Shown one piece after another: positions 11,165-63,126 of a DNA stretch of 64,000 bases; the stretch's first letter is position 1; every line of letters begins with the position of its first letter. The stretch lies in the NCBI RefSeq assembly GCF_913064665.1, contig NZ_CAJYBT010000016.1, positions 1-64,000 of the forward strand, in the 5' to 3' direction. A program made the translations under genes and the position numbers. Source of the stretch: an uncultured Thioclava sp. (lineage in GTDB: Bacteria; Pseudomonadota; Alphaproteobacteria; Rhodobacterales; Rhodobacteraceae). A model generated the notes under the pieces. That model was given only the letters and a program-made list of their open reading frames with translations, searched no databases and was not told the DNA's origin.

Positions 11165-13132
11165 ATGGCTGCTCAGGAACAAGCGCATCAAATCCCGGAC
11201 CTAAAAGAAATTCCGCCGGGCTTTGAGAACGCACATGCGGATGCTGCGAAATATCGCGCGATGTATCAGGAATCGATCGATACGCCTGACAAGTTCTGGG
11301 CCCGCGAGGCGCAGCGCCTGGATTGGATCACCCCGTTCACCAAGGTGAAGAACACCGATTTCACCTACGGCAATGTCTCGATCAAATGGTTCGAGGATGG
11401 CGTGCTCAATGCTTCGGTGAACTGCGTTGATCGCCATTTGGCCACGCGCGGCTCTCAGACCGCTATCATCTTTGAGCCCGATGATCCCGAAACCCCGGCG
11501 CTGCATATCACCTATAGCGAGCTGTCCGAAAAGGTGAATCGCTTTGCCAACGTCCTGCTAAGCCAAGGCGTGATGCGTGGCGACCGTGTGGTGATCTATC
11601 TGCCGATGATCCCCGAGGCCGCTTATGCGATGCTGGCCTGTGCGCGCATCGGCGCGATCCATTCCATCGTGTTCGCTGGCTTCTCGCCCGATGCGCTGGC
11701 CAACCGGATCAACGATTGCGGCGCCAAGCTGGTGATCACCGCTGACAGTGCCCCGCGTGGCGGGCGTCGCACGCAGCTCAAGGCGAATGCCGATGCCGCA
11801 TTGCTGCATTGCTCGGACAAGGTGCGCTGCCTTGTGGTCAAGCATACCGGCGATCAGACGAGCTGGATTCAGGGCCGCGATGTCGATGTGAAGGCGCTGA
11901 TGGATAACGTCTCGCCCGAATGTCCGCCGCGCCCGATGAGCGCCGAAGACCCGCTGTTCATCCTCTATACCTCTGGCTCGACGGGCAAGCCCAAGGGCGT
12001 GGTGCACACGACGGGCGGCTATCTCGTCTATGCCTCGATGACGCATCAATACACGTTCGACTATCACGATGGCGACGTGTTCTGGTGCACCGCCGATGTC
12101 GGCTGGGTCACCGGCCACAGCTATATCGTCTATGGTCCGCTGGCCAATGGCGCGACCACGATCATGTTTGAAGGCGTGCCGACCTATCCCGATGCGGGCC
12201 GCTTCTGGGCCGTGTGCGAAAAGCACAAGGTCAGCCAGTTCTATACCGCCCCCACCGCGATCCGCTCGCTGATGGGGCAGGGCAAGGAATGGGTCGAGAA
12301 ATACGATCTGTCCTCGATCAAGGTGCTGGGCTCGGTCGGTGAACCGATCAACCCCGAGGCATGGGCTTGGTATGATCAGCATATCGGCAAGGGCAGATGC
12401 CCGATCGTCGATACGTTCTGGCAGACGGAAACGGGCGGCCACATGCTGACCCCGCTTCCCGGCGCGATTGCGACCAAACCGGGCTCGGCAACGCGCCCCT
12501 TCTTTGGCGTCAAACCGGTTATTCTGGATGCGCAAACCGCGCAGCGTCAGGATGAAACCGAGGCCGAGGGCGTGCTGTGTATCTCTGATAGCTGGCCGGG
12601 CCAGATGCGCACCCTTTGGGGCGATCACGAGCGCTTCCAAGAAGCCTATTTCAGCCAATATCGCGGCTATTACTTTACCGGTGATGGCTGTCGTCGCGAC
12701 AAGGATGGCTATTACTGGATCACCGGGCGCGTTGATGACGTGATCAACGTCTCGGGTCACCGGATGGGCACGGCCGAAGTCGAATCCGCGCTGGTCGCGC
12801 ACCAGGCTGTCGCCGAGGCCGCCGTCGTTGGCTATCCCCACGAGCTGAAAGGTCAGGGCATCTACGCCTATGTCACCTTGATGAACGATGTCGAACCCAC
12901 CGAAGAACTGCGCAAAGAGCTTGAAAAATGGGTCCGCACCGAGATCGGTCCGATTGCCAAACCCGACATCATCCAATGGGCTCCGGGCCTGCCGAAAACC
13001 CGCTCGGGCAAGATCATGCGCCGCATTCTGCGCAAGATCGCCGAGAATGATTTCGGCTCGTTGGGGGACATTTCGACACTGGCCGATCCGTCGGTGGTCG
13101 AGGAGTTGATCGAAAACCGCGGCGTCAAGTGA
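11165..13132 (+). CDS. acs: Acetyl-CoA synthetase (AMP-forming)
   Basis: Activates acetate with ATP and CoA to acetyl-CoA, AMP and pyrophosphate. The ANL-family loop [18 protein letters not shown] is present near residues 265-282, and the motif TFWQTETGG in the middle. The C-terminal [11 protein letters not shown] contains the catalytic Lys616, the usual target of reversible acetylation. At 655 residues it is full length. Start ATG 11165 follows GGGAGGAAGCC. An adenylate kinase gene begins 20 bp later and an acetate-type symporter follows, so this is the head of an acetate-use operon. Confidence 0.97.
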
Positions 13133-45675: not shown

Positions 45676-46470
45676 TTAGAAATCAAGCGAATTGCGTTCG
45701 CGATAGCCTTGCAGAAAGCTTGCGAGACGCGGGTCGGAGGGGGCATCGAACACGTCACGCGGCGAGCCAACGGCGACGATCTCACCGCGTTCCATGAACA
45801 CGACTCGGTCCGCGACATGGGCGGCAAACCCCATCTCATGGGTGACCACGACCATCGTCATGCCTTCGGCGGCAAGCTGTTTCATCACGCCCAGAACCTC
45901 ACCCACGAGTTCGGGGTCAAGTGCGCTTGTCGGCTCGTCAAACAGCATGATGCGCGGCTCCATCGCGATGGCGCGTGCGATGGCCACACGCTGTTGCTGC
46001 CCGCCCGACAGGTGGCTGGGATGGTTGCCTTCCTTGTCGCCCAGCCCGACCTTGGCAAGCGCCTCGCGCGCGCGTGTTTCGGCTTGCGCGCGCGACAGAC
46101 CGCGCACGCGCTCCAGCCCTTCGGCGACGTTCTGTAACGCGGTCATATGGGGCCAGAGGTTGAACTGCTGAAACACCATCCCGATCTCGCGGCGCATTTC
46201 GCGCAGGCGGCGCGGCGCCATACGTTTGCCACCGGGCGTCTCATAGCCGATCAACTGATCATCGATGCGCACCTCGCCGCTGTCATAGTCCTCAAGCACA
46301 TTGATACAGCGCAAAAGCGTGGATTTACCCGACCCGGATGGGCCGATCAGACAGGTCACCTTGCCCGGTGGGATGTCGAGCGAAACGTCTTTGAGGGCCT
46401 GAAACGGGCCGTAGAATTTGTTGACGTTACGCAGATAGGCGGCTGCGGGTGCCGCTGGCTGATGGGTCAT
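45676..46470 (-). CDS. Polar amino-acid ABC transporter, ATP-binding protein
   Basis: 264-residue ATPase of the HisP/GlnQ group. Walker [11 protein letters not shown]-loop [16 protein letters not shown], signature [15 protein letters not shown], Walker [15 protein letters not shown] and H-loop VTHEMGFAA. It is last in the leftward hut operon, 3 bp after a permease gene. Position suggests histidine or urocanate-related uptake. Confidence 0.93.
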
Positions 46471-46473
46471 CTT

Positions 46474-47133
46474 TCAGCTCCGATCAATTAGGTAATGGGT
46501 GAAACGGCGTTCAAGACGACGTCCGATCCGCGAGATCGCCTCGACGAAGCCCCAGAAGAACAGCGCAAGGATCAGGATCGGGGTGACGAAGGCGAAGGTT
46601 TCGCTCATCATCGTCTGGGTCTGGAACATGATCTCGGGGACGGTGATCATCGACAGGATGACGGTTTCCTTGGTCAGGATGATCGCGAAATTTACCAGCG
46701 CCGGAAGGGCCGAGACCATCATCACCGGCACCATTATGCGCGAAACGATGGTGGAGTTGCGAAAGCCAATCGCGCGCGCGGCCTCGATCTGGCCCAGTGG
46801 CACCGCATCAAAGCCCGCGCGCAGGATCTCGGTGAAATAGGCGCTGCCGTAGATCGTCAATCCAAGGATGCCCGCAGGCAGCGCATCCAGCCGCAGCCCG
46901 ATCAGCGGCCCGCCGTAATAAAGCACGAACAACTGAACTAGAAAGGGCGTGCCGCGAATGAACTCCACATAGGCGCGGATCGGATAGCCAAGCGCGCGGG
47001 GGCCAAACCGGCGTGCGATTTCGATCAAAAAGCCCAGCACAAAACCGAAAGCCGTGCCCAGCAGCCAACTGAAAATGGTCAATCCGAACCCGGTCAGCAA
47101 ATCAGGGCCGTAGCGGTGCAGCGTCTCCAGCAT
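46474..47133 (-). CDS. Polar amino-acid ABC transporter permease (second)
   Basis: 219-residue membrane protein of the HisM/GlnP family with about five helices and the EAA loop (LGQIEAARAIGFRNSTIVSRIMVP) that contacts the ATPase. Its start overlaps the first permease gene as TGATG. Part of the histidine-locus transporter. Confidence 0.92.
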   Translation of the reverse strand: MLETLHRYGPDLLTGFGLTIFSWLLGTAFGFVLGFLIEIARRFGPRALGYPIRAYVEFIRGTPFLVQLFVLYYGGPLIGLRLDALPAGILGLTIYGSAYFTEILRAGFDAVPLGQIEAARAIGFRNSTIVSRIMVPVMMVSALPALVNFAIILTKETVILSMITVPEIMFQTQTMMSETFAFVTPILILALFFWGFVEAISRIGRRLERRFTHYLIDRS

Positions 47134-47780
47134 CAGACGGCGAGCCTCCGTTCAAGAACGCGCCCGACCTGCGCGATGACAAGGTTGATCGCGAGGTAGA
47201 TGAACGCAGCCGCGAGGTAGATTTCGAGGGGGCGAAAGGTTGCAGCGGCGATGGATTGGCTCATCCGCGTGATCTCGACAATGCCGACCACGGTGACCAG
47301 CGAGCTGGCCTTCACCAGCAAGATCAGCTCATTGACGATGGCGGGTAAGCCGATCTTGAGCGCCTGTGGTAGCAGAATCCGCACCCAGACATCCAGCGGC
47401 ACCATTCCGATCGCGGCGGCGGCTTCGGCCTGACCTTTGGGAATTGCGTTGAGCGAGCCGCGCAGCACTTCTGACAGATAGGCCGCGGCACAAAATCCCA
47501 CGGTCAGGACCGCCGCGACAAGGGCCGGCACATTCAGCCCGATCACCGGCAGCAGGTAGTAGGCTACAAGCAGCTGGATCAGCAGCGGCACGCCGCGAAA
47601 GAAGCTGACATAAAGTGCTGCGGCCCGGCGCAGCCATATTTTATGCGAGAGGGCTGCGGCACAGATAACGGCCCCAAGGATGAGCCCTTCAAGACAGCCA
47701 AGCACCGAGATCAGCAGCGTATAGCGCGCCGAGCCGATCAACACTGGCAAATTGTCTATGATCGTCTGGAATGAGAACAT
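47133..47780 (-). CDS. Polar amino-acid ABC transporter permease (first)
   Basis: 215-residue HisQ/GlnP-type permease with the EAA loop (KGQAEAAAAIGMVPLDVWVRILLPQ). ATG 47780 is chosen with AGGG upstream; GTG 47786, two codons earlier, is the alternative. It follows the substrate-binding gene by 67 bp. Together the two permeases form a heterodimer. Confidence 0.92.
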   Translation of the reverse strand: MFSFQTIIDNLPVLIGSARYTLLISVLGCLEGLILGAVICAAALSHKIWLRRAAALYVSFFRGVPLLIQLLVAYYLLPVIGLNVPALVAAVLTVGFCAAAYLSEVLRGSLNAIPKGQAEAAAAIGMVPLDVWVRILLPQALKIGLPAIVNELILLVKASSLVTVVGIVEITRMSQSIAAATFRPLEIYLAAAFIYLAINLVIAQVGRVLERRLAV

Positions 47781-47847
47781 GGCCACACCCTGATTGTGGA
47801 CGAGAAAATGGCGCGGGCCGGAATGGCTTCGGCCCGCGCAAGCTGTC

Positions 47848-48660
47848 TTAGAGTTTGGGCATCATCTGGGGCAAAGCGGTTGCCGCACCGAACCATTTCT
47901 CTTGCAGGGTCTTCATCCGGCCATCCGCCTCGATCTTCTTGAGGGCGTCATTCACCGCCGCGACCAATGTGTCACCCTCACCCTTGCGGGCGACATAGCC
48001 GAAATAGGTCGGCGTGCCGAAGGGCGGGTTCACGACGGCGAAATCGTCGGGGCGCTTCTTGGCAAGGTAGTTGAGTAGCGGCGCAGAGCCTGCAACCGCG
48101 TCAAGCCGTCCGGTCATCAGATCGGCATAGGCCTCGTCATTGGTGCCGTATTCCTTGATGGTGAAGCCGCCGATCTTGGCGCTGTAGGCATCAAGCTGCT
48201 TTTGCTGGGCCGTGCCTTTTTGCACGCCAACGGTCAGGCCCTTGGCATCCTCGGGCTTTGTCATCTTGCCACCCTTGCGCTGCACGAAAGTCACGGTCGC
48301 ATCCGCGATCGGCAGGGTAAAGCTGTAGCGATCGGCGCGTTCGGCCGTCATCGTCACCGGGGCGAGCACGAAGTCGAATTTCTTCACTTCAAGACCGGGC
48401 AGAATCGAGGTCCAGGGCAGGTCTTCATAGACCGGGGCGACGCCCATTTCCTTGGCGATCTCATCAAACAGATCCCGGTCAAAGCCAACGTAATTGCCGT
48501 TCTCGAGCATGTCGAAAGGCGCGTAATGCATCTCGGTCGCAGCGACGATCTTGCCAGCGGCCTTGATGTCGGCCAGGTCATCGGCCAGCGCACCCGACGC
48601 GGTGATGGCCAGCGCGCCCAGACCGAAAAGGGCGGATTTCAGTGTCGTGGAAAACATCAT
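47848..48660 (-). CDS. Polar amino-acid ABC transporter, substrate-binding protein
   Basis: 270-residue periplasmic binding protein, family 3. Signal peptide MMFSTTLKSALFGLGALAITASGALA; the mature part begins DDLADIKAAGKIVAATEMHYAPFDM, with YVGFDRDLFDEIAKEMGV and the amidophosphate-like RADRYSFTLPI of SBP_bac_3. ATG 48660 follows CAGGAGAG. Embedded behind hutD, it probably captures histidine or a related imidazole compound; ligand not provable from sequence. Confidence 0.9.
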   Translation of the reverse strand: MMFSTTLKSALFGLGALAITASGALADDLADIKAAGKIVAATEMHYAPFDMLENGNYVGFDRDLFDEIAKEMGVAPVYEDLPWTSILPGLEVKKFDFVLAPVTMTAERADRYSFTLPIADATVTFVQRKGGKMTKPEDAKGLTVGVQKGTAQQKQLDAYSAKIGGFTIKEYGTNDEAYADLMTGRLDAVAGSAPLLNYLAKKRPDDFAVVNPPFGTPTYFGYVARKGEGDTLVAAVNDALKKIEADGRMKTLQEKWFGAATALPQMMPKL

Positions 48661-48759: not shown

Positions 48760-49314
48760 TCATGTCAGGGCCCTCACACTCACGGAAATCATCGGGCCAT
48801 CGGCACGAAGGTTACCTGTCAGATCGTCTTGCGGATCAGGCAGTAAAACCTCGTCCGGGTGCAATATGAAATCTCCGATCTTGACGGGATGCGTGCGTGT
48901 CACAAGGGCAATGGTGTCGCTGGGCACGGCTTGGCCAGCGGCCAGCATCTCGACCCGGTGCACGCAGGCGCCGCGCCGGGTCATAATGTTGAAATCCAGT
49001 ATCGGCCCGTCGGTCAGACGCGCATTGAGGGCCGCCTCGCCCGGAAAGGACAGGGGCGGTGCGCTGGCATCAAGTGTCACCGATCCGCCCTGCGCGAAGC
49101 TCAGCGTCATCCCAGCCCCCGACAGAACCGTCAACGTGCGATCAATGCCCGCAAATTCCGAGAACGCGCCGTCGCTTGCGACCTCGGCCATGCTCAGCCG
49201 CCACACTATATCGTCAAAGCCCGCCCCTTCGGGAAAGGCGGCGATCTCCCAAGTCAGACCGCCCCCGTTCTTCCAGGGCGTGGCCGTCAGATCGCTGCGG
49301 CGGAGTTTCTTCAT
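48760..49314 (-). CDS. hutD: HutD family protein
   Basis: 184-residue bicupin. Starts [23 protein letters not shown], with the WKNGGG signature, and [21 protein letters not shown], both typical for HutD. In pseudomonads HutD acts as a modulator of hut expression, thought to respond to urocanate or formylglutamate. Start ATG 49314 overlaps the hutU stop as ATGA. Confidence 0.92.
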
Positions 49315-51005
49315 TTCAGGATGCCCGGCAGATCGAGACCATGTTCGATTGCGCAATCGCGCGCGATCTCATAGCCCGCATCGGCATGGCGCATCACGCC
49401 GGTGGCCGGGTCGTTCCACAGCACCCGCTTGAGGCGACGGTCGGCATCTTCGGTGCCATCGCAACAGATCACCATGCCCGAATGCTGCGAGAATCCCATC
49501 CCGACGCCGCCGCCGTGATGCAGCGACACCCAAGTTGCGCCCGAAGCGGTATTGAGCAGCGCGTTCAGCAAGGGCCAGTCCGACACCGCCCCCGGGCCGC
49601 ACGTCACGCCCGCGGTCTCACGGTGGGGAGGGGCAACCGAGCCGCTAGCAAGGTGATCGCGCCCGATCACGACGGGGGCTTTCAGCTCGCCATTGCGCAC
49701 CATCTCGTTGATTGCCAGACCCGCCTTGTGGCGCTCGCCAAGCCCGATCCACATGATCCGAGCGGGCAGCCCCTGAAAGGCGATGCGCTCGCGTGCCATG
49801 TCAAGCCAACGATGCAATTGCACGTTCTCGGGGAAGATTTCCTTCATCCGCTGGTCGGTCTTGTAGATGTCTTCGGGATCGCCCGACAGCGCCGCCCAGC
49901 GGAACGGGCCAACGCCGCGGCAGAACAGTGGGCGGATATAGGCGGGCACGAAACCGGGGAAAGCAAACGCGTTTTCCAACCCCTCTTCCTGCGCCATCTG
50001 GCGGATGTTGTTGCCATAATCGAGCGTGGGCACGCCCGCATTCCAAAAGCCCACCATCGCCTCAACATGATCGCGCATCGAGGCGCGGGCGGCGGCAGCG
50101 ACCCCGGCGGAGTTGCTCTCTTGCTCGGCGCGCCATTGCGCAACGGTCCAGCCCTTGGGCAGATAGCCATGGAAGGGATCATGCGCCGAGGTCTGGTCGG
50201 TCACCATGTCGGGGCGCCCATTGGGCAGCGCTTCGCCCGCCTGCATCCGGCGCAGGATTTCGGGGAAGATGTCGGCGGCATTGCCGATCAGCGCGACCGA
50301 TTTTGCCTCGCCCGCCGCCGTCCAACGCCCGATCATCGCCAGCGCCTCGTCCAGAGAATGAGTTTTTTCATCGCAATAGCGCGTGCGGATACGGAAATCG
50401 GCGCGGGTTTCGTCGCATTCCACAGCCAGACAGCATGCGCCCGCCATCACCGCGGCCAGCGGCTGCGCACCGCCCATGCCGCCAAGCCCCCCGGTCAGAA
50501 TCCAGCGCCCTGTCAGATCGCCCTCGTAATGCTGACGCCCGGCTTCGGCGAAGGTTTCATAGGTGCCCTGAACGATGCCCTGCGCGCCGATATAAATCCA
50601 CGAGCCCGCGGTCATCTGGCCATACATCGCCAGACCCTTCTTATCGAGCTCGTTGAAATGGTCCCAAGTCGCCCAATGCGGCACGAGGTTGGAATTGGCG
50701 ATCAGCACACGCGGCGCATCCGCGTGGGTCTGGAAAATACCCACTGGCTTGCCCGATTGCACCAGCAGCGTCTGGTCGGATTCAAGCTTGCGCAGCGAGT
50801 CACAGATCAGGTCGAAATCTTCCCAAGTGCGCGCCGCGCGTCCGATGCCGCCATAGACCACCAGCTCATGCGGGTTCTCGGCCACATCGGGGTGGAGGTT
50901 GTTCATCAACATGCGCAGCGGCGCTTCGGTCAGCCAGCTTTTGGCGGTGATCTCGGTGCCGGTCGCGGGGTAGATGTCGCGGGTATTGTGACGCGGGTTG
51001 GTCAT
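49311..51005 (-). CDS. hutU: Urocanate hydratase (urocanase)
   Basis: Second step of histidine breakdown: urocanate + water to imidazolone propionate with a tightly bound NAD+. 564 residues, full length. Urocanase signatures include [19 protein letters not shown] and the motif around [13 protein letters not shown] with the active-site cysteine. ATG 51005 follows AAAGGA; a TTG one codon earlier is also open. It lies 21 bp after the acyl-CoA dehydrogenase gene. Confidence 0.97.
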
Positions 51006-51026
51006 CAAATCGGTCCTTTCAGCATG

Positions 51027-52169
51027 TCAGGCGAGCAGGCGGCCCGCGATGATGTTGCGTTGAATTTCAGAGGAGCCCTCGTAGATGCGCATGATGCGCA
51101 GATCGCGAAGGTGACGTTCCAGCGGGAAGTCCTGCGTAAAGCCGTAGCCGCCATGGATTTGCAGCGCGTTATCGGCGATGCGCCCGGCAGCTTCGGAGGC
51201 AAACAGCTTGGCTTTCGAGGCGGCGGTGGTGAAACGCTGCCCGGCTTGGCGCTGGCGCGCGGCTTCATGGCCGAGCAGTTCAGCGGCGGACAGTTCGGTT
51301 GCCATATCCGCCAGCATCCACTGGATGCCCTGACGGTTGGACAACGGTTCGCCGCCGATGATGCGCGACTTGGCCCAGGCGCGCGCGGCGCTTAGCGCGG
51401 CGCGGGCAATCCCCACGGCCATTGCGGCCACTTCGGTGCGCCCGTTATCGAGCACCTTCATCGCGGTGCGAAACCCGGAGCCCTGCGCGCCGACACGGTT
51501 TGCATCGGGCACCACGACGTCGATATCAAGCTCCCAGACATGGCCGCCGCGCAGCCCCATCGTCTGCTCGACCCGCCCCGGCACAAGGCCCGGCGTGCCT
51601 TTTTCGATCACGAAAGCCGAGATGCCGCGATGGCCTGCCTCTGGGTCGGTGACGCAGTAAGTCACGATGAAATCGGCCACGCCGCCATTCGAGATGAAAC
51701 ACTTCTTGCCCTTGATGCGCCAATCCGCACCTTCGCGCGTGGCCTTGGTGCGCATGTCGGCGGGGTCCGAGCCCGCATTGGGCTCGGTCAACCCGAACGC
51801 GCCCAGCATCCGGCCCTCGGCAGCAGCAGGCAGAAACCGTTCGCGCAAGTCATCATCGGCCCCGATCAGCAGGCTATCGGTCGCCAAGTAATGCGCCGTC
51901 AGCGCCGAGACGGTCGAGCCGCAGCCCCCCGCGACGCACGCCACCGCCTCAAACAGCGCATGGGCGGAAATATCGGCCCCGCCCCAACGCTCGGGCAGGT
52001 TGGCCCCCATCATACCCGTCTCGGCCAGCGCGGCGAGTTGGGCATGCACGAAGGCGCCGGACGCATCGGTGGCGGCGGCCTGCGGGACAAGCACGTCGGC
52101 GCTAAAGCGGTCGAGCATATCAAGGAACTGGCGCTCTTCGGGGCTGAGAAGATGATCGAAATCGCTCAT
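51027..52169 (-). CDS. Acyl-CoA dehydrogenase inside the hut operon
   Basis: 380-residue FAD enzyme with the complete family architecture: N-terminal helices, GAFGLTEPNAGSDPADM flavin/substrate motif in the middle, and the C-terminal catalytic-base segment IYEGSSEIQRN with E364. Start ATG 52169 overlaps the CoA-transferase stop as ATGA, and hutU follows after 21 bp, so it is firmly embedded between hutG and hutU. No acyl-CoA step exists in the known hut pathways. A plausible substrate is imidazolepropionyl-CoA (see findings); leucine- or glutaryl-type activities cannot be excluded. Confidence 0.9.
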   Translation of the reverse strand: MSDFDHLLSPEERQFLDMLDRFSADVLVPQAAATDASGAFVHAQLAALAETGMMGANLPERWGGADISAHALFEAVACVAGGCGSTVSALTAHYLATDSLLIGADDDLRERFLPAAAEGRMLGAFGLTEPNAGSDPADMRTKATREGADWRIKGKKCFISNGGVADFIVTYCVTDPEAGHRGISAFVIEKGTPGLVPGRVEQTMGLRGGHVWELDIDVVVPDANRVGAQGSGFRTAMKVLDNGRTEVAAMAVGIARAALSAARAWAKSRIIGGEPLSNRQGIQWMLADMATELSAAELLGHEAARQRQAGQRFTTAASKAKLFASEAAGRIADNALQIHGGYGFTQDFPLERHLRDLRIMRIYEGSSEIQRNIIAGRLLA

Positions 52170-53359
52170 GGCGTGGGGTCCTTGATAACGCCGGCTGCGA
52201 TGAGCTGCGTGATTTGCGCGCCGCTTAACCCGGCCTCTTGCAGGATGTCGCGGGTCGCGCCGCCAAGCGCGGGGGCGCCGGTCTCTGCCAGCAGCGCCTT
52301 GCCATCAAAGCGGATGGGCTGACCGACGACCGGGGATTTCCCCAGCCGGTGATGGGGCAGATCGCTAACCAGCGCGCGGGCGGCGGCGTGATCGGAGGCG
52401 AGTTGCTGGGCGAGGGTCAGGATTGGCGCGGTCGGCACGCGGGCCTCTGCGAGCGCGGCCACGACGGCTTGCGTCGGCTGCGTCCTGCTCCAGCCCTCGA
52501 TCAGCGTGCGCAGCGCAGGTTCGTTTTGCGTGCGACACTCGTCACTGGCAAAGCGCGGATCGTCCGCAGCGTCGGGCGCACCGATCACATGGCACAAGGC
52601 CGCGAACTGGCGCGCGCCCAGCACGGCGATGATCGCGTGACCATCGGCGGTGCGAAAGGCCCCGAACGGCGTGGACAGCGGATGGCGATTGCCGACACGC
52701 GCCACGGGACTGTCGGAATAAAGGTGGATCGCGTGGCTGGTGGGCAGCATCGCCACAAGGCAGTCAAGCATCGCGACATCCAGTGCCGCCCCTTGCCCGG
52801 TTTTCCCGCGTCCGACCAGAGCCGCCAGAATCGCGATCACGGCATAAAGCCCCGCCGCGACATCGCCCAAGGCTTCGCCAACTTTCAGCGGCCCGCCGCC
52901 GTCTTCGCCCGTCGCATCCATCCAACCCGACATCGCTTGGGCGACAAGATCATAGGCGGGTAGTTGCGCGGCCGGGCCCTCTTGGCCAAAGCCAGAGATC
53001 GCGCAATAGACAAGGCCCGGATTGTCAGCGCGCAAGGCGTCTGCGCCAAGACCCAGCCGGGCCGCCACGCCGGGGCGGAAATTCTCGACCACGACATCGC
53101 ATTGGCCAGCGAGTTGACGCGCAAGCGCCTGACCCTCTGCGGATTTAAGGTCGATCACGATCGAGCTTTTGCCGCGATTGGTCAGCGTAAATAGCGCCGA
53201 TTCCCCGTCTCGAAACGGGCCGATATGGCGGTAATCATCCCCTTGGGGCGGTTCGAGTTTGATGATCTTCGCCCCCAGATCGGCCAGCAACGCGGTGGCG
53301 AACGGCCCCGACAGTACGCGGGTCAGATCAAGAATGCGCAGACCTTCGAGCGGCCTCAT
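52166..53359 (-). CDS. CaiB/BaiF-type (class III) CoA transferase inside the hut operon
   Basis: 397-residue enzyme that moves CoA between carboxylic acids. Typical start PLEGLRILDLTRVLSGPF and the catalytic aspartate D137 in PAYDLVAQAMSG. Its stop overlaps the acyl-CoA dehydrogenase start, and its start ATG 53359 overlaps the hutG stop as ATGA, a double coupling that argues for one pathway. Class III transferases usually pair with an acyl-CoA dehydrogenase in carnitine and bile-acid metabolism. The acceptor acid here is unknown; an imidazole acid is suggested by context. Confidence 0.9.
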   Translation of the reverse strand: MRPLEGLRILDLTRVLSGPFATALLADLGAKIIKLEPPQGDDYRHIGPFRDGESALFTLTNRGKSSIVIDLKSAEGQALARQLAGQCDVVVENFRPGVAARLGLGADALRADNPGLVYCAISGFGQEGPAAQLPAYDLVAQAMSGWMDATGEDGGGPLKVGEALGDVAAGLYAVIAILAALVGRGKTGQGAALDVAMLDCLVAMLPTSHAIHLYSDSPVARVGNRHPLSTPFGAFRTADGHAIIAVLGARQFAALCHVIGAPDAADDPRFASDECRTQNEPALRTLIEGWSRTQPTQAVVAALAEARVPTAPILTLAQQLASDHAAARALVSDLPHHRLGKSPVVGQPIRFDGKALLAETGAPALGGATRDILQEAGLSGAQITQLIAAGVIKDPTP

Positions 53360-54161
53360 GCGCGCAGCTCCGGGGCGAGGCTTTCCAGCGCGCGCAGGAT
53401 TTCGCCCAGATGCGGGCGCAGGCGTGCGGCCTTGTCGGCGTTGATCTCCCAAGGCGGGGCTTCAACGGTAAGATGGGTCGATTGCGCCAGCTCCATCTGG
53501 ATCGCATGCACGCCTTCGTTGGGCTGGCCGTAATGGCGCGTGGTCCAGCCGCCTTTGAACCGCCCGTTCACGACATGATCGAACCCTTGCGCGCGCGCGC
53601 AGATCGCGGCGGTCGTGGTCTCGATCTGGGGGGCGCAACTGGTGCCATTCGCCGTGCCGATATTGAAATCGGGCAGCTTGCCGTCGAACAGGAAGGGAAT
53701 ATGCGAGCGGATCGAGTGACAATCATAGAGGATCGCCACGCCGTGACGCGCCCGCACCCGCGCGATTTCGGCGCGCAGAGCGGCGTGATAGGGCGCGTGG
53801 AACTGCGCGAGGCGCATCTCGATCTCGGCGGCGTCGGGTTCGGCGCGCCAGATCGGCGTGCCGTCGAAGTCGGTCAGCGGCACCAGCCCCGTCGTGTTCT
53901 GACCGGGATAGAGGCTGTCATTTTCAGGGCCGCGATTGGCGTCGATCACATAGCGATGAAACGTGGCGCGCACGGTGGTCGCGCCCGGCAGCAGGCCCGC
54001 GTAAAGGTGGTGAATATTCCAATCGGTATCGGCCAGCTCGCGACCGCGATCATTGAGGTCATTGCGCACGCTTTCCGGCAACCAAGTGCCGGTATGGGGC
54101 AGGCCCAGAATGATCGGGCTGTCGCCTTGTTCGATCTCGACGGGGGCAGGGGCGTTTTGGC

Positions 54162-54165
<4 letters not shown>
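53356..54165 (-). CDS. hutG: N-formylglutamate deformylase
   Basis: 269-residue metal-dependent amidohydrolase of the FGase family that releases formate and glutamate from N-formylglutamate. Conserved pieces: [38 protein letters not shown] with the metal-binding histidine, and [16 protein letters not shown]. Coupled to hutH by ATGA and to the CoA-transferase gene. Works with HutF in the five-enzyme hut route. Confidence 0.95.
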
Positions 54166-55675
<1,510 letters not shown>

Positions 55676-55682
<7 letters not shown>

Positions 55683-56854
55683 TTGCGGCCTCCGAAATAG
55701 CGGCTGTGAAGAGGGTTGAAGCCGATGCGATAGGTCAGCTCGGCAGGGTCAGTGGCGTCCCACACCGCCAGATCGGCGCGCATCCCCGGGGCAAGGCGGC
55801 CGCAATCGGTCAGCCCCAGCGCCTGTGCGGCATTGCAGGTTACACCGCGCAGACACTCGGTTGGCGTCAGGCGAAACAGGGTCGCGCCCATATTCATCGT
55901 CAGCAGTAGCGAGGTGAGGGGCGAGGTGCCGGGATTGCAATCACTGGCCAGCGCCATCGTGCAGCCCGCCGCGCGAAACGCCGCAATCGGCGGCATCTGG
56001 GTTTCGCGCAAGGTGTAGAACGCCCCGGGCAGCAGCACCGCGACACTTCCCGCAGCCGCCAGCGCCTTGGCATCATCGGCGGTGGCATATTCGATGTGAT
56101 CGGCGGACAGGCCTTTGCGCGCGGCAACCAGTTGCGCGCCGCCCTGATGGGAAAGCTGTTCGGCATGCAACTTGACCGGCAGGCCCAGTTCTTGCGCGAC
56201 ATCAAAGATGCGCGCCATTTGAGCGGCGCTAAAGGCGATGTTCTCACAAAACCCGTCAACCGCATCCACGAGGCCCTGCGCATGGGCGGCGCGCAAGCCC
56301 GCGATCACGACCTCGTCGATATAGGCCTCGGCGCGCCCGACATATTCGGGGGGTAACGCATGCGCGGCCAGCCACGTCGTCACGACCCGCACCGGGCGCA
56401 TCTGCGCCAGCCGCCGCGCCGCGCGCAGCATCTTGAGTTCATCCTCCACCGTAAGCCCGTAGCCCGATTTGACCTCGACCACTGCCACGCCTTCTGCCAG
56501 CAGCGCATCAAGCCGGGGCAGGGCCAAGGCCACCAGCGCATCTTCACTTGCCGCGCGCGTGGCATTCACTGTTGAAAGGATGCCTCCGCCGCTTTGGGCG
56601 ATTTCTTCGTAGCTTGCGCCCTCCAGACGTTTCTCGAATTCGCGCGCCCGGCTGCCGCCATAGACCAGATGCGTATGGCAATCGATCAACGCCGGGGTGA
56701 TCAGCCGTCCGCCCATATCCTCACCCTCAGCCGCCCCTTCCCCAATTGCCGCGATGCGCCCGTTTTCGATGTGCAGCCACCCGTTGAAGGCGCGATTTTC
56801 GTTATCTGCGGTGCAGGGAACGAGGGCGGCATTGGTGAGGGTGATCTGGGTCAT
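55676..56854 (-). CDS. hutI: Imidazolonepropionase
   Basis: Third step: hydrolyses imidazolone propionate to N-formimidoyl-L-glutamate. 392-residue amidohydrolase with metal ligands in [10 protein letters not shown], the GGGILSTV substrate loop, [12 protein letters not shown] and SDCNPGTSP. The open frame runs on to 58306 opposite hutF but that is a shadow; ATG 56854 gives the family length. First gene of the leftward operon, opposite the HutC-type operator. Confidence 0.96.
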
Positions 56855-56884
56855 GGGCTCGATTCGCGCTTGATTTGAAATTAA

Positions 56885-56898
56885 TATGTATGCACATA
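56885..56898. promoter_or_regulatory. Probable HutC operator between hutI and hutF
   Basis: TATGT (56885-56889) and ACATA (56894-56898) are inverted around ATGC; with flanks, TTAATATGT and ACATAATAA match at 8 of 9 positions. The dyad is the centre of the 72-bp gap between hutI and hutF and overlaps CATAAT, a -10-like hexamer toward hutF. GntR/HutC proteins bind short dyads of this kind. Single site controlling both transcripts is inferred. Confidence 0.7.
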
Positions 56899-56926: not shown

Positions 56927-58297
56927 ATGCAAACGATCTGGGCGCGCAGGGCGCTGGTGATGAATTCCTGGGCAGAATCGGTAAGAATTGATCTGAATGA
57001 GAATGGCCGGATCGCCGCCGTGACCGCAGGCTCCGACTGCCCTGCGCATGCCAAACGCGTGCAAACGCTGCTGCCCGCGCCCGCCAATCTGCATAGCCAC
57101 GCCTTTCAACGCGCGATGGCAGGGCTGTCCGAGCGGCGCGGCAGGGATCCGCAAGACAGCTTCTGGACGTGGCGGCAATTGATGTATCGCTTTCTCGACC
57201 GTCTGACCCCCGACGACATTCAGGCGATTGCAGCCTTCGTGCAGATGGAGATGCTTGAGGCGGGCTATGCCACCAATGTCGAGTTCCACTACCTGCATCA
57301 CGCGCCCGACGGTCGCCCCTATGCCGATCTGGCCGAGATGGCCGGGCGGATCGTGGCGGCGGCGGCGCAAACCGGCATTGGGCTGACGCTGTTGCCCGTG
57401 CTTTACAGCTATGGCGGGCTGGATCGGCGCGCGCTTGTCGCGGGGCAGGATCGTTTCGGCAATGCTCCCGAGCGCTTTGCGCGCCTTGTCGAGGGCGCGC
57501 GCGCCCATGTCGCGGGGCTTGGGGCCGATAGCGGGCTGGGCATTGCACCCCATAGTTTGCGCGCGGTTGATGCGGCAGGGCTTCAGGCCGCGATCTCGCT
57601 TGCCGGGACCGCGCCGATCCACATTCACTTGGCCGAGCAGGCGGCCGAGGTTGATGAGGTGATGGCCGCCACTGGGCGTCGCCCCGTCGAATGGCTGCTT
57701 GAAAATGCCCCCGTCGATGCGCGCTGGTGTTTGATCCATGCCACCCAAATGCTGCCCGCCGAGACCGAGGCGCTTGCCGCCACGGGCGCGGTTGCCGGGT
57801 TGTGCCCGATCACGGAATCGAGCCTTGGCGACGGGATCTTTGACGGCGTGCGCTGGCGCGCGGCGGGGGGCGCGTTCGGGATTGGCTCGGATAGCAATAT
57901 CCGGATTTCGCTGAGTGAAGAACTGCGCACGCTCGAATATTCGCAACGCCTGCGCGATCACACGCGCGCCGCGCTGGCCGATACGGATCGCTCGACGGGG
58001 CGGGTGTTGTTTCAAGGCGCGGTCGAGGGCGGTGCGCAGGCGGCGGGCCGTGCCAGTGGTGCGATTGCCGAGGGGCTTTGGGCGGATTTGCTGGCGCTTG
58101 ACGATCTGGGGCCGGATGGGCAAGGGAAGGCCGGTGACACCCTGCTGGACACCTGGATTTTTGCGCGCGACGATCATTCGGTGCGCGATGTCTGGTCGGC
58201 GGGGCGTCATGTGGTGCAAGATGGACGCCATATTCAACGCGATGCGATCATGCCCGCCTATGCGCGGGTCATGCAACGACTGGGGCAAGAGGTGTGA
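56927..58297 (+). CDS. hutF: Formimidoylglutamate deiminase
   Basis: 456-residue amidohydrolase that converts N-formimidoyl-glutamate to N-formylglutamate and ammonia, feeding HutG. Metal ligands in [36 protein letters not shown]-type sequence ([13 protein letters not shown]) and [15 protein letters not shown] 56927 follows GGAGGT. Its stop overlaps the hutC start as GTGA. Confidence 0.96.
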
Positions 58298-59010
58298 ACG
58301 TGACAAAGGGGGATGGGCCCGTCAGTTCGGTCAGTTGGCAGTCGATCCGCGACACGATGATGACGCGGATCCGCGCGCATGATTACGCCCCCGGCGAGCT
58401 GATCCCGAACGAGGTCGATCTGGCCACGGAATTCGGCTGCGCGCGTGCCACCGTCAACCGGGCGTTGCGCGATCTGGCGACCTCGGGGTTTTTGGATCGA
58501 CGGCGCAAGGCGGGCACGCGGGTGCGCGAGGCGCCTCGGCGCAAGGCCACGCTCACCATCCCGCTGACCCGCGCCGAGGTCGAGGCCAGTGGCGCGCGCT
58601 ATGAATATCGCCTGCTGGAGCGAGGCGTCGAAGTGCCGCCGCCTGCGGTGCGCGGAAAGCTCAAACTTGCGGGCGACGAACGGTTGCTGCACGTCAAGAG
58701 CTTGCATCTGGCAGATGACGTGCCGCATATGTTTGAAGACCGTTGGATCGTTCTGGATACTGTGCCTGAAATCGAAGCCGTCGATCTGGCGAAAACCAGC
58801 CCCAACGTGTGGCTTGTGCGGCATGCCCCTTACACACATGGCACGATGGAATTCTTGGCCGAAACCGCGGGGGCGCGCGCAAAGCATTTGATTTGCGCCG
58901 CCGATGATCCAGTTTTGACGATGCTGCGGGTCACATGGCTTGATGCGTCCCCGATCACATTTGCCAGACAAACCTTTTCGCCGTCGCACCGGATGCGCCT
59001 TGAGTTATGA
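58294..59010 (+). CDS. hutC: Histidine-utilisation repressor (GntR/HutC)
   Basis: 238-residue repressor. N-terminal GntR winged helix ([20 protein letters not shown] then [18 protein letters not shown]) and C-terminal UTRA ligand domain (about 90-235). Family members release DNA when urocanate binds. GTG 58294 overlaps the hutF stop; GTG 58300 is an alternative. No terminator follows directly; one lies 170 bp on. Confidence 0.93.
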
Positions 59011-59304: not shown

Positions 59305-59922
59305 CTAATGGGGTGTCTTGTCGGGATGCGCTTCGGCAAAGGCTGGCAGGGTTTCAAGCTGGCCTGCGATACGGCGAAGTTTGGGCATCGCGCTAAGATC
59401 GACCTCCCAGCGCCGGGCATTGTAGATTTGCGGCAAGAGGCACAGATCGGGCAGGGTGACGCGTGCTCCCGCACAATAGGGGCCGTCTTCTACCATTGCC
59501 TCGACCGCTTCAAGGCCGGGTCCGATAAATGCCTGCATCCAGCCCTTCATCGTGATTGCGCCTTGAGACTGCTCAATAGCGTAATTCGCGACGCGCAGGT
59601 TGCAAATGGGGTGGATGTCGATTGCGATGGCCTGAGCGAGGGCACGCAGGCGGGCACGTTCTGACGCGGTGCCGGGCAATAGACCCAGCGCGCGCGTCTC
59701 ATCAAGATATTCAATGATCGCAAGCGATTGGGTGAAGATCTGACCGTCGATTTCAAGCGCAGGCACCAGTCCTTGCGGGTTTCGCGACAGATGCTCGGCG
59801 CTGCGTTGTTCGCCTTTGACAAGGTCGATCGACACGCTTTCCCATTGCAGCCCCGCCAACCCAAGCGCGATGCGCACACGGTAGCTCGCCGAGGAACGCC
59901 AGTAATCGAAGAGTTGGATCAT
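59305..59922 (-). CDS. maiA: Maleylacetoacetate isomerase (zeta GST)
   Basis: Converts maleylacetoacetate to fumarylacetoacetate in tyrosine breakdown using glutathione. 205 residues with the zeta-class SSASYRVRIALG motif at the N terminus and typical NPQGLVPALEIDG and LPDLCLLPQIYNAR segments. It is coupled to the MarR-type gene upstream (ATGA) and diverges, through it, from hmgA-fahA. Confidence 0.95.
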   Translation of the reverse strand: MIQLFDYWRSSASYRVRIALGLAGLQWESVSIDLVKGEQRSAEHLSRNPQGLVPALEIDGQIFTQSLAIIEYLDETRALGLLPGTASERARLRALAQAIAIDIHPICNLRVANYAIEQSQGAITMKGWMQAFIGPGLEAVEAMVEDGPYCAGARVTLPDLCLLPQIYNARRWEVDLSAMPKLRRIAGQLETLPAFAEAHPDKTPH

Positions 59923-60380
59923 GCGGTTTTCTCGCTGTTCAATAGCTGCGCCAGCGCGTGGCGAAACCCGTTCAGGTCGGCGCCTAGCAAGCCTTCAAGC
60001 TGGCGCTGATAGTCAAGCGCGCGGGGTAGCAATCGCGCCATCAGCGCACGACCTTGATCCGTCAGGCTAAGCGCCACAAGCCGCCCGTCCACCGGATCGG
60101 CGCGCTTTTCCACCAGCCCCGCCGCTTCAAGCCGTGCCGCCGCGCGACTGACCTTGGATTTCTCCATTGAAACGCGCCGTTCGATATCGCGCACCGAGAC
60201 CCGCCCGCTGTAAGAAAGATGCACCATGACGCGCCATTGCGGGGTGCTTAAACCGGAATCGCGATAGATATCCGCGAGGTCGCGACTGAGTTTCTGGGCC
60301 GCTTCTGCCAGCAAGTAGGGCAGGAAACCATCCAGTTCAAAATCTGGTAAAACAGGTTTTATTTCAATGTCTTGTTCCAT
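59919..60380 (-). CDS. MarR-family regulator of the homogentisate genes
   Basis: 153-residue winged-helix regulator (HTH around VSVRDIERRVSMEKSKVSRAAARLEAAGLV; wing DPVDGRLVALSLT). It diverges from hmgA with two matching dyads between, so it probably represses hmgA-fahA and itself-maiA. Homogentisate or another pathway acid is the likely effector. HmgR/HpaR-like naming would be by analogy only. Confidence 0.88.
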   Translation of the reverse strand: MEQDIEIKPVLPDFELDGFLPYLLAEAAQKLSRDLADIYRDSGLSTPQWRVMVHLSYSGRVSVRDIERRVSMEKSKVSRAAARLEAAGLVEKRADPVDGRLVALSLTDQGRALMARLLPRALDYQRQLEGLLGADLNGFRHALAQLLNSEKTA

Positions 60381-60431
60381 GAATCCTGCATCATTTCATG
60401 CTATCTGTTGACGTCAGTTGAATATCAAACC

Positions 60432-60476
60432 TGTTGCAAATGCAACAAATTTCTTGACATCGTTGCGCATGCAACG
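60432..60476. promoter_or_regulatory. Tandem operators around the hmgA -35 region
   Basis: TGTTGCAAATGCAACA (60432-60447, arms TGTTGCA/TGCAACA) and CGTTGCGCATGCAACG (60461-60476, arms CGTTGC/GCAACG) share the pattern GTTGC-N4-GCAAC. Their centres are 29 bp apart and they flank a TTGACA hexamer (60454-60459) reading toward hmgA. This is a strong candidate for the MarR-type regulator's binding sites. Confidence 0.8.
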
Positions 60477-60532
60477 AAAGATCGCCTCAAGCATCCCGAG
60501 GGGAGTCGGGACGATGAGACGGAGGAGTTCAG

Positions 60533-61894
60533 ATGAGTGATCAATCTTTGCCCCAAGGCATGACGCGCGCCAGCGGCGGCACTGGGCCTCATGCTGGCTA
60601 CATGCCCGGTTTTGGCAATGACTTTGAGACCGAGGCGCTGCCGGGCGCGTTGCCGCAAGGCCAGAACAGCCCGCAGAAATGCGAATACGGGCTTTATGCC
60701 GAGCAGCTTTCGGGTACGGCCTTTACCGCGCCGCGCGGGCAGAATGAACGCACGTGGTGCTACCGCATCCGGCCTTCGGTGAAGCATACCGGGCGCTTTG
60801 CAAAGATCGACGTGCCCTATTGGAAATCCGCACCCAACGTGGATCCCGACGTGATCAGTCTTGGCCAATATCGCTGGGACCCGGTGCCCCATACCGAAGC
60901 CGATTTGACGTGGCTGACGGGGATGCGCACGGTCACCACGGCGGGGGATGTGAACACGCAAGTCGGCATGGCCAGCCATATCTATCTGGTCACGCAATCG
61001 ATGCAGGACGAGTATTTCTTCTCCGCCGATAGCGAGCTGTTGGTTGTGCCGCAAGAAGGCCGGCTACGGTTTTGCACCGAGCTGGGCATCATTGACCTTG
61101 AGCCCAAGGAAATCGCAATTATCCCGCGCGGGCTGGTCTATCGCGTCGAGGTGCTTGAAGGGCCCGCGCGCGGCTTTGTCTGCGAAAACTACGGGCAGAA
61201 ATTTGATCTGCCGGGTCGTGGCCCGATTGGCGCGAACTGCTTGGCCAACCCGCGCGACTTCAAATGTCCGGTCGCGGCCTTTGAAGATCGCGATGCGCCT
61301 AGTCGTGTCGTCATCAAATGGTGCGGTCAGTTCCACGAGACCTTCATCGACCACAGCCCGCTTGATGTGGTGGCGTGGCATGGCAATTACTGCGCCTATA
61401 AATACGACCTGCGCACCTATAGCCCGGTCGGTGCGATCTTGTTTGACCATCCCGATCCCTCGATCTTCACCGTGCTGACCGCGCCGTCAGGGCAAGAGGG
61501 CACCGCCAATATCGACTTCGTGCTGTTCCGTGAGCGCTGGATGGTGGCCGAGCACACCTTCCGCCCGCCGTGGTATCACAAGAACATCATGTCCGAGATG
61601 ATGGGCAATATTTACGGCATTTATGACGCCAAGCCGCAGGGCTTCGTGCCCGGCGGCATGAGCCTGCACAACATGATGCTGCCCCACGGGCCCGATCGCG
61701 CTGCGTTCGAACATGCCAGCAACGAGCCGATGAAGCCGGTGCTGCAAGATAACACGATGCAATTCATGTTCGAGACACGTTTCCCCCAGCATCTGACGGC
61801 TTTCGCCGCGACAGAAGCGCCCTTGCAGGACGACTACATCGATTGCTGGGACAGCATTGAAAAGAAATTCGACGGAAAACCGGGGACCAAATGA
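60533..61894 (+). CDS. hmgA: Homogentisate 1,2-dioxygenase
   Basis: Opens the ring of homogentisate to maleylacetoacetate with a non-heme Fe(II). 453 residues, full length. Conserved pieces: [19 protein letters not shown] at the N terminus, [19 protein letters not shown], and [20 protein letters not shown] with iron ligands (histidines and glutamate). Its stop overlaps the fahA start as ATGA. Confidence 0.97.
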
Positions 61895-63126
61895 CGGATG
61901 TGAAAAGCTGGGTGGCGTCTGCGAATGGCGACACGGACTTCCCAATTCAGAACCTGCCTTATGGCGTGTTTGACGATGGGCGCGGCGCGCGCATGGGTGT
62001 GGCGATCGGCGATCAGATTCTTGATCTTGGCGCGGTGGATCACGGTCTGGATGCGGCGCTGTTTGTCGAGCCTGCCTGGAACCGCGTCATGGAGGCCGGG
62101 CCGCAGCTTTGGGCCGATTTGCGCGCGCGCTTGATCGCGTTGCTGTCAGACGAGGCGCATCGCGCAGCCGTCGAGCCGCATCTGGTTGCGCAATCGCAGG
62201 CCAAGATGCTGATGCCGTTTCGCGTCATGGAATATACCGATTTCTATGCGGGCAAGTACCATGCGATGAATGTTGGCACGATCTTTCGCGGGGCGGAAAA
62301 TGCGCTGCCCGCGAACTGGCTGTCGATCCCGATTGGCTATAACGGGCGGGCCTCGTCGGTGGTGGTGTCTGGCACGCCGGTCACGCGGCCTTGGGGGCAG
62401 GTGAAGGGGCCAAATGACGATCTGCCGCGCTTTGCGCCTTCGGCCCGCTTTGACATCGAACTGGAATTTGGCGCGATTGTCGGACAGCCCTCGCAAGGGA
62501 TGATCTCGGTGGCGCAGGCCGATGAGATGATCTTTGGCTATGTGCTGCTCAATGACTGGTCGGCGCGAGATATCCAGGCTTGGGAATATGTCCCGCTTGG
62601 GCCGTTTCAGGGCAAGGCGACGGCCACCACGATCTCGCCTTGGATTGTGACCCGCGCCGCGCTGGCACCGTTCCGCATTGCAACGCCTGAGCGTGAGCGC
62701 CCGCTGCTGCCTTATTTGTCCGAGCCGGGGCCGATGAATTACGACATCGCGCTTGAGGTTGCCCTACAACCCGAAAACGGGGCCGAGACGGTGATTTCGC
62801 AGACCAATACGCGCGAACTCTATTACTCGGCCGCGCAACAGTTGGCCCATCACACCAGCTCTGGCTGTGCGATGCGGGTGGGCGATCTGCTGGGATCGGG
62901 CACGATTTCGGGCGTGACGCCGGATAGTCGCGGCTCGCTGCTGGAAATGTCTTGGTCGGGCAAGGAACCGCTGGAATTGCCGGACGGCACGACGCGCAGC
63001 TTCATCGAGGATGGCGACACGCTGACCCTGCGCGGGGCGGCGCAAGGCAATGGATACCGCATCGGGTTTGGCGATTGCGCGGGGCAGATCCTGCCCGCCG
63101 CCGATCTGCCCGATTGGGCGAAATAA
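61891..63126 (+). CDS. fahA: Fumarylacetoacetase
   Basis: Last step: cleaves fumarylacetoacetate to fumarate and acetoacetate. 411 residues with an SH3-like N-terminal part and the FAH fold; metal-site region [17 protein letters not shown] with D and E ligands in [11 protein letters not shown] and [13 protein letters not shown]. Coupled to hmgA. Downstream gene follows at 18 bp. Confidence 0.96.

Follow-up and report, generated by a model that had tools for sequence, protein, structure and literature searches.

A CoA transferase and acyl-CoA dehydrogenase pair in a Thioclava hut locus as a candidate entry module from imidazolepropionate to urocanate

The 64,000-nucleotide stretch of an uncultured Thioclava sp. 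analysed here (contig NZ_CAJYBT010000016.1, positions 1 to 64,000; hereafter the window) contains a complete hut locus, in which hutG and hutU are separated by genes for a class III coenzyme A (CoA) transferase (CoAT) and an acyl-CoA dehydrogenase (ACAD). This locus raises the question of what two CoA-dependent enzymes do inside a hut operon. The original prediction was that they convert imidazolepropionate (dihydrourocanate) to urocanate through a CoA cycle, and our analysis supports this as the best explanation: CoAT and ACAD quite likely give imidazolepropionate an entry into the hut pathway, salvaging it as urocanate. The recurrence of the pair beside hut genes, the separate clade formed by its ACAD, and a likely HutC operator in four loci detached from hut point in this direction; imidazolepropionate itself is the substrate that we infer.

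The CoAT gene (52166..53359, minus strand) encodes 397 amino acids and would specify a urocanoyl-CoA:imidazolepropionate CoA transferase, and the ACAD gene (51027..52169, minus strand) encodes 380 amino acids and would specify an imidazolepropionyl-CoA dehydrogenase. Their position between hutG and hutU, with Asp137 in CoAT and Glu364 in ACAD, had been claimed from the first and was borne out by the open reading frames (ORFs), the Pfam matches, and the sequence. The next gene, hutU (49311..51005, minus strand), encodes the urocanate hydratase that would consume the proposed product; it scored 892 bits against TIGR01228 (cut-off 375) when scanned as 49311-50978. Its start is likely the ATG at 51005, and the ORF list instead begins at a TTG at 51008. 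The gene order on the minus strand is hutI, hutH, hutG, CoAT, ACAD, hutU, and hutD, followed by amino-acid ABC transporter ORFs, and hutF and hutC lie on the opposite (plus) strand, divergent from the hutI operon. ATGA overlaps were read from the sequence at the hutG/CoAT and CoAT/ACAD junctions, as predicted, and likewise at hutH/hutG. The gap between the ACAD stop codon and the hutU ATG is 21 nt, where a promoter of its own for hutU would hardly fit. Together, the overlaps and this short spacing suggest that the pair is most likely co-transcribed with the hut genes.

CoAT matched the Pfam family CoA_transf_3 (PF02515) over residues 4-367 of 397 with 410.9 bits (cut-off 23.3, E = 6.6e-123), and this nearly full-length match, together with an aspartate in a (Y/F)D motif, places it in class III (CaiB/BaiF, Frc). 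That aspartate, Asp137, which we take to be the catalytic residue, was kept in all 50 aligned CoAT rows and aligned with the YD of four solved family members. ACAD contains the N-terminal, middle, and C-terminal domains of its family and the catalytic glutamate in the (Y/F)EG(S/T) motif, Glu364, which was kept in 50/50 aligned subfamily rows; both alignments include two duplicate records (L148 and L155) and leave out fragmentary rows (L051; L064 and L157). The predicted ACAD model (pLDDT 92.8) has a short-chain-type ACAD fold, and its top Foldseek matches were 4n5f (TM 0.95) and 4m9a, at about 40% identity.

None of the NCBIfam substrate models listed reached its cut-off for either protein, and the known substrate families were rejected for the pair on these scores. 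The best score of ACAD was 342.6 against a cut-off of 640 (acryloyl-CoA reductase), and it fell outside the glutaryl-CoA dehydrogenase (214.1, cut-off 470) and crotonobetainyl-CoA dehydrogenase (143.9, cut-off 540) families. For CoAT, the top model was succinate-glutarate CoA transferase (323.7 bits, cut-off 750), and the L-carnitine CoA transferase model gave 133.3 (cut-off 413). In a tree of 50 subfamily and 8 generic ACAD rows, the subfamily was split off by a 100/100 branch. Placement of ACAD in a family with a proven unrelated substrate would have spoken against the original prediction; instead, ACAD belongs to this separate clade and lies far below the listed NCBIfam cut-offs. Compared with 60 generic relatives, the subfamily (50 rows, L148 and L155 again among them) has a one-residue deletion after His93 (50/50 versus 3/60), Glu or Asp at position 246 and Arg at position 361 (each in 50/50, where generic relatives mostly have Gly and Glu, respectively), and Met, Phe, or Leu at position 360, where generic relatives have Thr or Cys. 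The ACAD subfamily is marked by a residue signature of its own and, by score, lies outside the curated substrate families. These positions, which were placed by alignment and not by coordinates, suggest a remodelled acyl pocket.

ACAD relatives were collected from three sources: plasmids (14 of the 60 records listed, at at least 57% identity with the next at 43%, of which 12 were used and Paracoccus yeei H71 and H72 were not), named genomes (the best 80 matches, where the subfamily comprised the 20 listed at at least 49% identity), and whole genomes (family and phylum samples). After removal of the duplicates L046, L048, L148, and L155, 50 distinct loci remained, the window included. CoAT adjoined ACAD in 49 of them; L064, where the contig edge lies 28 bases upstream, was counted as unpaired. 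At least one of the core hut genes (hutH, U, I, G, or F) was found within 10 kb in 30/50 loci; when hutC, hutD, and histidine-type binding proteins were counted as well, the figure was 35/50. By comparison, core hut genes were near other ACADs of the same genomes in 0/19 regions (20 regions were taken; L170, whose stretch does not hold the ACAD, was excluded, and L172 spans only 6.1 kb), and none of 60 generic ACAD loci was hut-linked, the latter being a weak control as most of these loci come from other phyla. Fisher's test of 30/50 against 0/19 gave p = 1.5e-6, which serves as a guide only because the loci are related. With the ACAD of L165 as query, nine carriers were detected among 399 genomes of its genome's family, one of which (G571) had already been counted. 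Of the eight further loci, seven had hutC and hutH near the pair together with a whole or partial hutU, whereas the remaining one, which lies close to a contig end, had no such gene in 11.8 kb. This sample is not independent, because it was drawn with a hut-linked query to which L196 is 99% identical; without L196 the count is 6/7. On the two controls, chance insertion of the pair into hut was rejected, and the association is not due to chance.

The hut-linked carriers belong to Paracoccaceae/Rhodobacteraceae, a Rhodospirillales metagenome-assembled genome (L065), Alcaligenaceae (L062), Comamonadaceae (L066), and other families (L161, L164, and L165). The survey that the original prediction called for thus revealed core hut genes at 30 of the 50 loci, with several different gene arrangements across Alpha- and Betaproteobacteria, rather than a coincidence confined to close relatives. 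Different ARRANGEMENTS of the pair were observed. In many Rhodobacterales loci the pair is part of the operon itself, with hutG or hutH on one side and hutU on the other. The order is ABC-2-hydroxyacid dehydrogenase-CoAT-ACAD-hutU-hutH in L062, CoAT-hutU-ACAD in L065, and hutC..hutU-CoAT-ACAD in L164. LysR/CoAT-ACAD stands next to a full hut operon in L156, L159, and L162, is flanked by hutH and hutD-U-G-I in L161, and has an ABC ATPase, hutC, hutH, and hutU on one side in L066, L165, and the eight L165-related loci. In the ACAD tree, core-hut loci occupied about seven separate places among loci without core hut genes. Either hut linkage evolved more than once, or it is ancient and has survived repeated rearrangement; neither history is expected of a passive neighbour.

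Twelve carriers (L034-L045) have the pair on plasmids or megaplasmids, several of them with a hut operon as well, and this location may explain the patchy spread of the pair. On the Thioclava nitratireducens plasmid NZ_CP019438.1 (L042, 10028-14853), hutU is split over two overlapping frames while CoAT and ACAD are open; PLSDB, whose gene table omits pseudogenes, lists neither hutU nor hutG of this locus.

The hutI/hutF promoter of the window contains the palindrome TATGTGCATACATA (56885..56898, in the hutI-hutF gap), a likely HutC operator. The form TATGT-N4-ACATA (TATGTNNNNACATA) was present in 10 of 17 hutI/hutF promoter regions. When the upstream regions of 18 loci were searched, four came within one mismatch of this form, and all four lack core hut genes: L039 (Mesorhizobium) with no mismatch, and L040 (Gemmobacter fulvus), L041, and L044 (both Sinorhizobium) with one each, in every case upstream of CoAT. 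In a control, 1 of 900 single-base shuffles did as well. The pair and the hut genes have a promoter motif in common, and HutC would likely bind it in the four detached loci as well. The LysR-type loci lack this box. Six of them (L036, L037, L045, L156, L160, and L161) share a 14-mer with a TATTT start and mostly a TATA end about 40-80 nt before CoAT, which is perhaps a LysR box.

Urocanate as the product would require a urocanase in every carrier, and one was detected in all 21 carrier genomes searched, 20 above the cut-off and one as a fragment below it in a 73%-complete genome. The five carriers in which the pair lies away from hut (G125, G153, G239, G390, and G695) were among them. The background in the window's family was 178/345 genomes, with urocanase in 13/13 carriers versus 165/332 non-carriers (p = 1.5e-4). 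The hydratases of L065, L062, L164, and L161 exceeded the cut-off for ordinary urocanase and reached neither of the two thiourocanate-type cut-offs, and thiourocanate metabolism was rejected on these grounds.

The 12 enoyl-CoA hydratase matches of the genome all lie off the window contig, and a homologue was present in only 1 of 58 subjects, L163, where a second ACAD and CoAT accompany it at a distance of about 2-3 kb from the pair. Onward beta-oxidation of urocanoyl-CoA was rejected on this basis; with the hydratase nearly absent from these loci, the enoyl-CoA is probably not beta-oxidised and must yield the free acid for HutU. Because HutU needs free urocanate, a CoA cycle is the simplest scheme. 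CoAT would shift CoA from urocanoyl-CoA onto imidazolepropionate, freeing urocanate, and ACAD would oxidise the resulting imidazolepropionyl-CoA to urocanoyl-CoA. The net reaction would take imidazolepropionate to urocanate and on to HutU, with CoA cycling in catalytic amount, and another acyl-CoA, e.g., succinyl-CoA, could prime the first round. Electrons from ACAD would probably pass through the general electron transfer flavoprotein (ETF) and ETF-quinone oxidoreductase (ETF-QO) to the respiratory chain. The genome has one match to ETF alpha, on another contig, and one to ETF-QO. In L063 (Crenobacter), an ETF alpha gene (11885-12817) follows ACAD, with 57% identity to that of the window genome, the only such case among the 58 subjects.

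Pairs of this kind are known elsewhere. CaiB/CaiA likewise combine a class III CoA transferase with an acyl-CoA dehydrogenase, and CoA cycles there between substrate and product acids; however, the Thioclava enzymes fall under the carnitine model cut-offs and their operon is hut, not cai. In the CarA/CarC (caffeate respiration) and FldA/AcdA systems, CoA is transferred between arylacrylate and arylpropionate alongside an ACAD-type enzyme, and ACAD finds CarC by sequence (6fah, E = 1.9e-64). Those systems are reductive and anaerobic and have a dedicated ETF, whereas the Thioclava pair is probably oxidative and served by the general ETF. The urocanate reductase UrdA is a single flavoprotein that works in the reductive direction without a CoA step. 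Like the proposed pair, it connects urocanate and imidazolepropionate.

Several observations weigh against a role of the pair in imidazolepropionate salvage. Fifteen of the 50 loci had none of the neighbours counted above (core hut genes, hutC, hutD, and histidine-type binding proteins) in the stretch examined. Most of the 15 are LysR-CoAT-ACAD cassettes. Some of the 15 have short flanks, but around the cassettes of Leisingera, Tritonibacter, Pseudosulfitobacter, and P. yeei the flanks span the full 10 kb and show no hut-type neighbour. The stretch around the P. yeei cassette also contains tricarballylate and oxalomesaconate-type genes, and such hut-less cassettes may act on another arylpropionate. 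L040, which is also among the 15, has imidazolelactate-type genes and the palindrome box. As for the box, 7/17 hutI/hutF promoters lack the exact palindrome, and in 14/18 loci the region ahead of the pair has no match within one mismatch. The box of L041, L044, and L039 lies between CoAT and a divergent hutC or transporter gene and may serve that gene too; only the box of L040, in the gap preceding CoAT, belongs to the pair alone. The ACAD signature is not linked to imidazole, and Glu246 could form a structural salt bridge with Arg361. Finally, the pair is rare, with 13 carriers among 345 genomes of the window's family; it was found in 9/398 genomes of the phylum sample and in 1/390 of the order of G443 (G443 itself).

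Other explanations agree with part of these results. Imidazolepropionate could be the substrate with CoA supplied by succinyl-CoA or acetyl-CoA and urocanoyl-CoA cleaved by a thioesterase elsewhere, and the top curated CoAT model is indeed named as a succinyl-CoA enzyme. We regard this route as unlikely: no thioesterase is named in the annotated gene tables of eight of the plasmid loci, though no search was aimed at thioesterases, and in CaiB-type systems the transferase itself releases the product acid. It also seems improbable that the substrate is another imidazole acid entering at urocanate or histidine, e.g., an N-methylated imidazolepropionate. Rieske oxygenases, found with a reductase in L039 and L040 and also in L161, could strip a methyl group; however, the oxygenase and reductase references had no match in the window, and among the loci compared the oxygenase reference matched these three only. 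Moreover, a dehydrogenase and an aminotransferase could cover imidazolelactate in L039, L040, L058, and L068, leaving the saturated side chain to the pair. There is very little to commend the view that an ordinary acyl-CoA module for short-chain or dicarboxylic substrates (of the butyrate, glutarate, or carnitine type) has drifted into the operon. Both families are large and succinate-glutarate CoA transferase is the best CoAT model, but every listed NCBIfam score is under its cut-off, the pocket arginine of glutaryl-CoA dehydrogenase, at the position where we presume it to lie, seems absent from ACAD, and drift would not predict repeated hut linkage and a common promoter motif. The reverse direction, in which urocanate would receive CoA and then serve as an electron sink, being reduced to imidazolepropionate in the manner of caffeate respiration, is highly improbable: the chemistry is reversible in principle, CarC is a sequence relative, and the Crenobacter locus has its ETF alpha gene, but that arrangement is unique among the 58 subjects, the only ETF alpha match of the window genome is on another contig, ETF-QO is present, the operon encodes urocanate-consuming enzymes, and carriers come mostly from aerobic groups.

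Some loci suggest a wider role alongside imidazolepropionate salvage. L039, L040, L058, and L068 contain a GlcD/D-2-hydroxyglutarate-type 2-hydroxyacid dehydrogenase and a HisC-like aminotransferase, L058 additionally has an FMN-dependent type, and L062 has the 2-hydroxyacid dehydrogenase only. Such enzymes could take imidazolelactate through imidazolepyruvate to histidine. In L040 (2842-8542) and L039 (11200-17134), a VanA/DdmC-type Rieske oxygenase and reductase accompany the HisC-like aminotransferase and GlcD-like dehydrogenase near the pair, and Rieske oxygenases lie on both sides of hutH in L161 (2728-7643). From their gene content, salvage of imidazolelactate and methylated histidine relatives is possible at these three loci. 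We lean slightly towards a broader proposal, namely that the pair is a CoA-cycling imidazolepropionate oxidation module across Pseudomonadota, in the hut regulon, and the missing genetic basis of imidazolepropionate degradation, and that in some genomes it belongs to a wider salvage locus that also takes imidazolelactate and perhaps N-methylated relatives into histidine and urocanate.

To judge by the title of a 1973 report by Coote and Hassall, Pseudomonas testosteroni reportedly degrades imidazolylpropionate, beside histidine and imidazolyl-L-lactate. The imidazolelactate-type genes near the pair recall this pairing, as far as a title conveys it. The organism is now Comamonas testosteroni, of the Comamonadaceae, to which the Rhodoferax and Polaromonas carriers also belong. 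In the open-licence PMC literature, no paper linking these genes to imidazolepropionate was found, though one may be in print elsewhere, and neither urocanoyl-CoA (or urocanyl-CoA) nor imidazolepropionyl-CoA (or imidazole propionyl-CoA) was mentioned. No genes destroying imidazole propionate were found there either, though its production by urocanate reductase has been studied; the passages of PMC13320830 consulted cover imidazole propionate production and histidine use, not degradation. Imidazole propionate is higher in type 2 diabetes and worsens glucose tolerance in mice (PMC7921117 and PMC7676231). If the proposed function is true, cells could feed through urocanate on this microbial metabolite linked to diabetes, the pair would mark the bacteria that consume it, and a candidate enzyme set to remove or measure it would be at hand. 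It would also provide a genetic handle on the imidazolylpropionate degradation of 1973 and a CoA-dependent side entrance to hut, a pathway known for CoA-free chemistry.

The remaining hut genes of the window were assigned as well, and hutH, hutU, hutI, hutG, hutF, and hutC each scored above the cut-off of a curated model. On the minus strand, hutG (N-formylglutamate deformylase, 53356..54165, TIGR02017), hutH (histidine ammonia-lyase, 54162..55682, TIGR01225), and hutI (imidazolonepropionase, 55676..56854, TIGR01224; scanned as 55676-56875, with the start set from sequence) precede CoAT, hutI being the first gene of the operon. The divergent plus-strand genes are hutF (formimidoylglutamate deiminase, 56927..58297, TIGR02022) and hutC (GntR-family hut repressor, 58294..59010, TIGR02018 with 237.4 bits, cut-off 220). 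On the minus strand, hutD (48760..49314, PF05962, start set from sequence) overlaps the hutU stop codon, and behind the hut genes lies an amino-acid ABC transporter (45676..48660, minus strand) with a binding protein, two permeases, and an ATPase, taken from the ORF list only. It may import histidine or related imidazole acids; in L034 and L035, homologues with the annotation amino acid ABC transporter come after hutU. On the other side, adjoining hutC, ORFs at 59305-63126 resemble by eye maleylacetoacetate isomerase, a MarR regulator, homogentisate dioxygenase, and fumarylacetoacetase, and this region reads like a tyrosine-degradation cluster.

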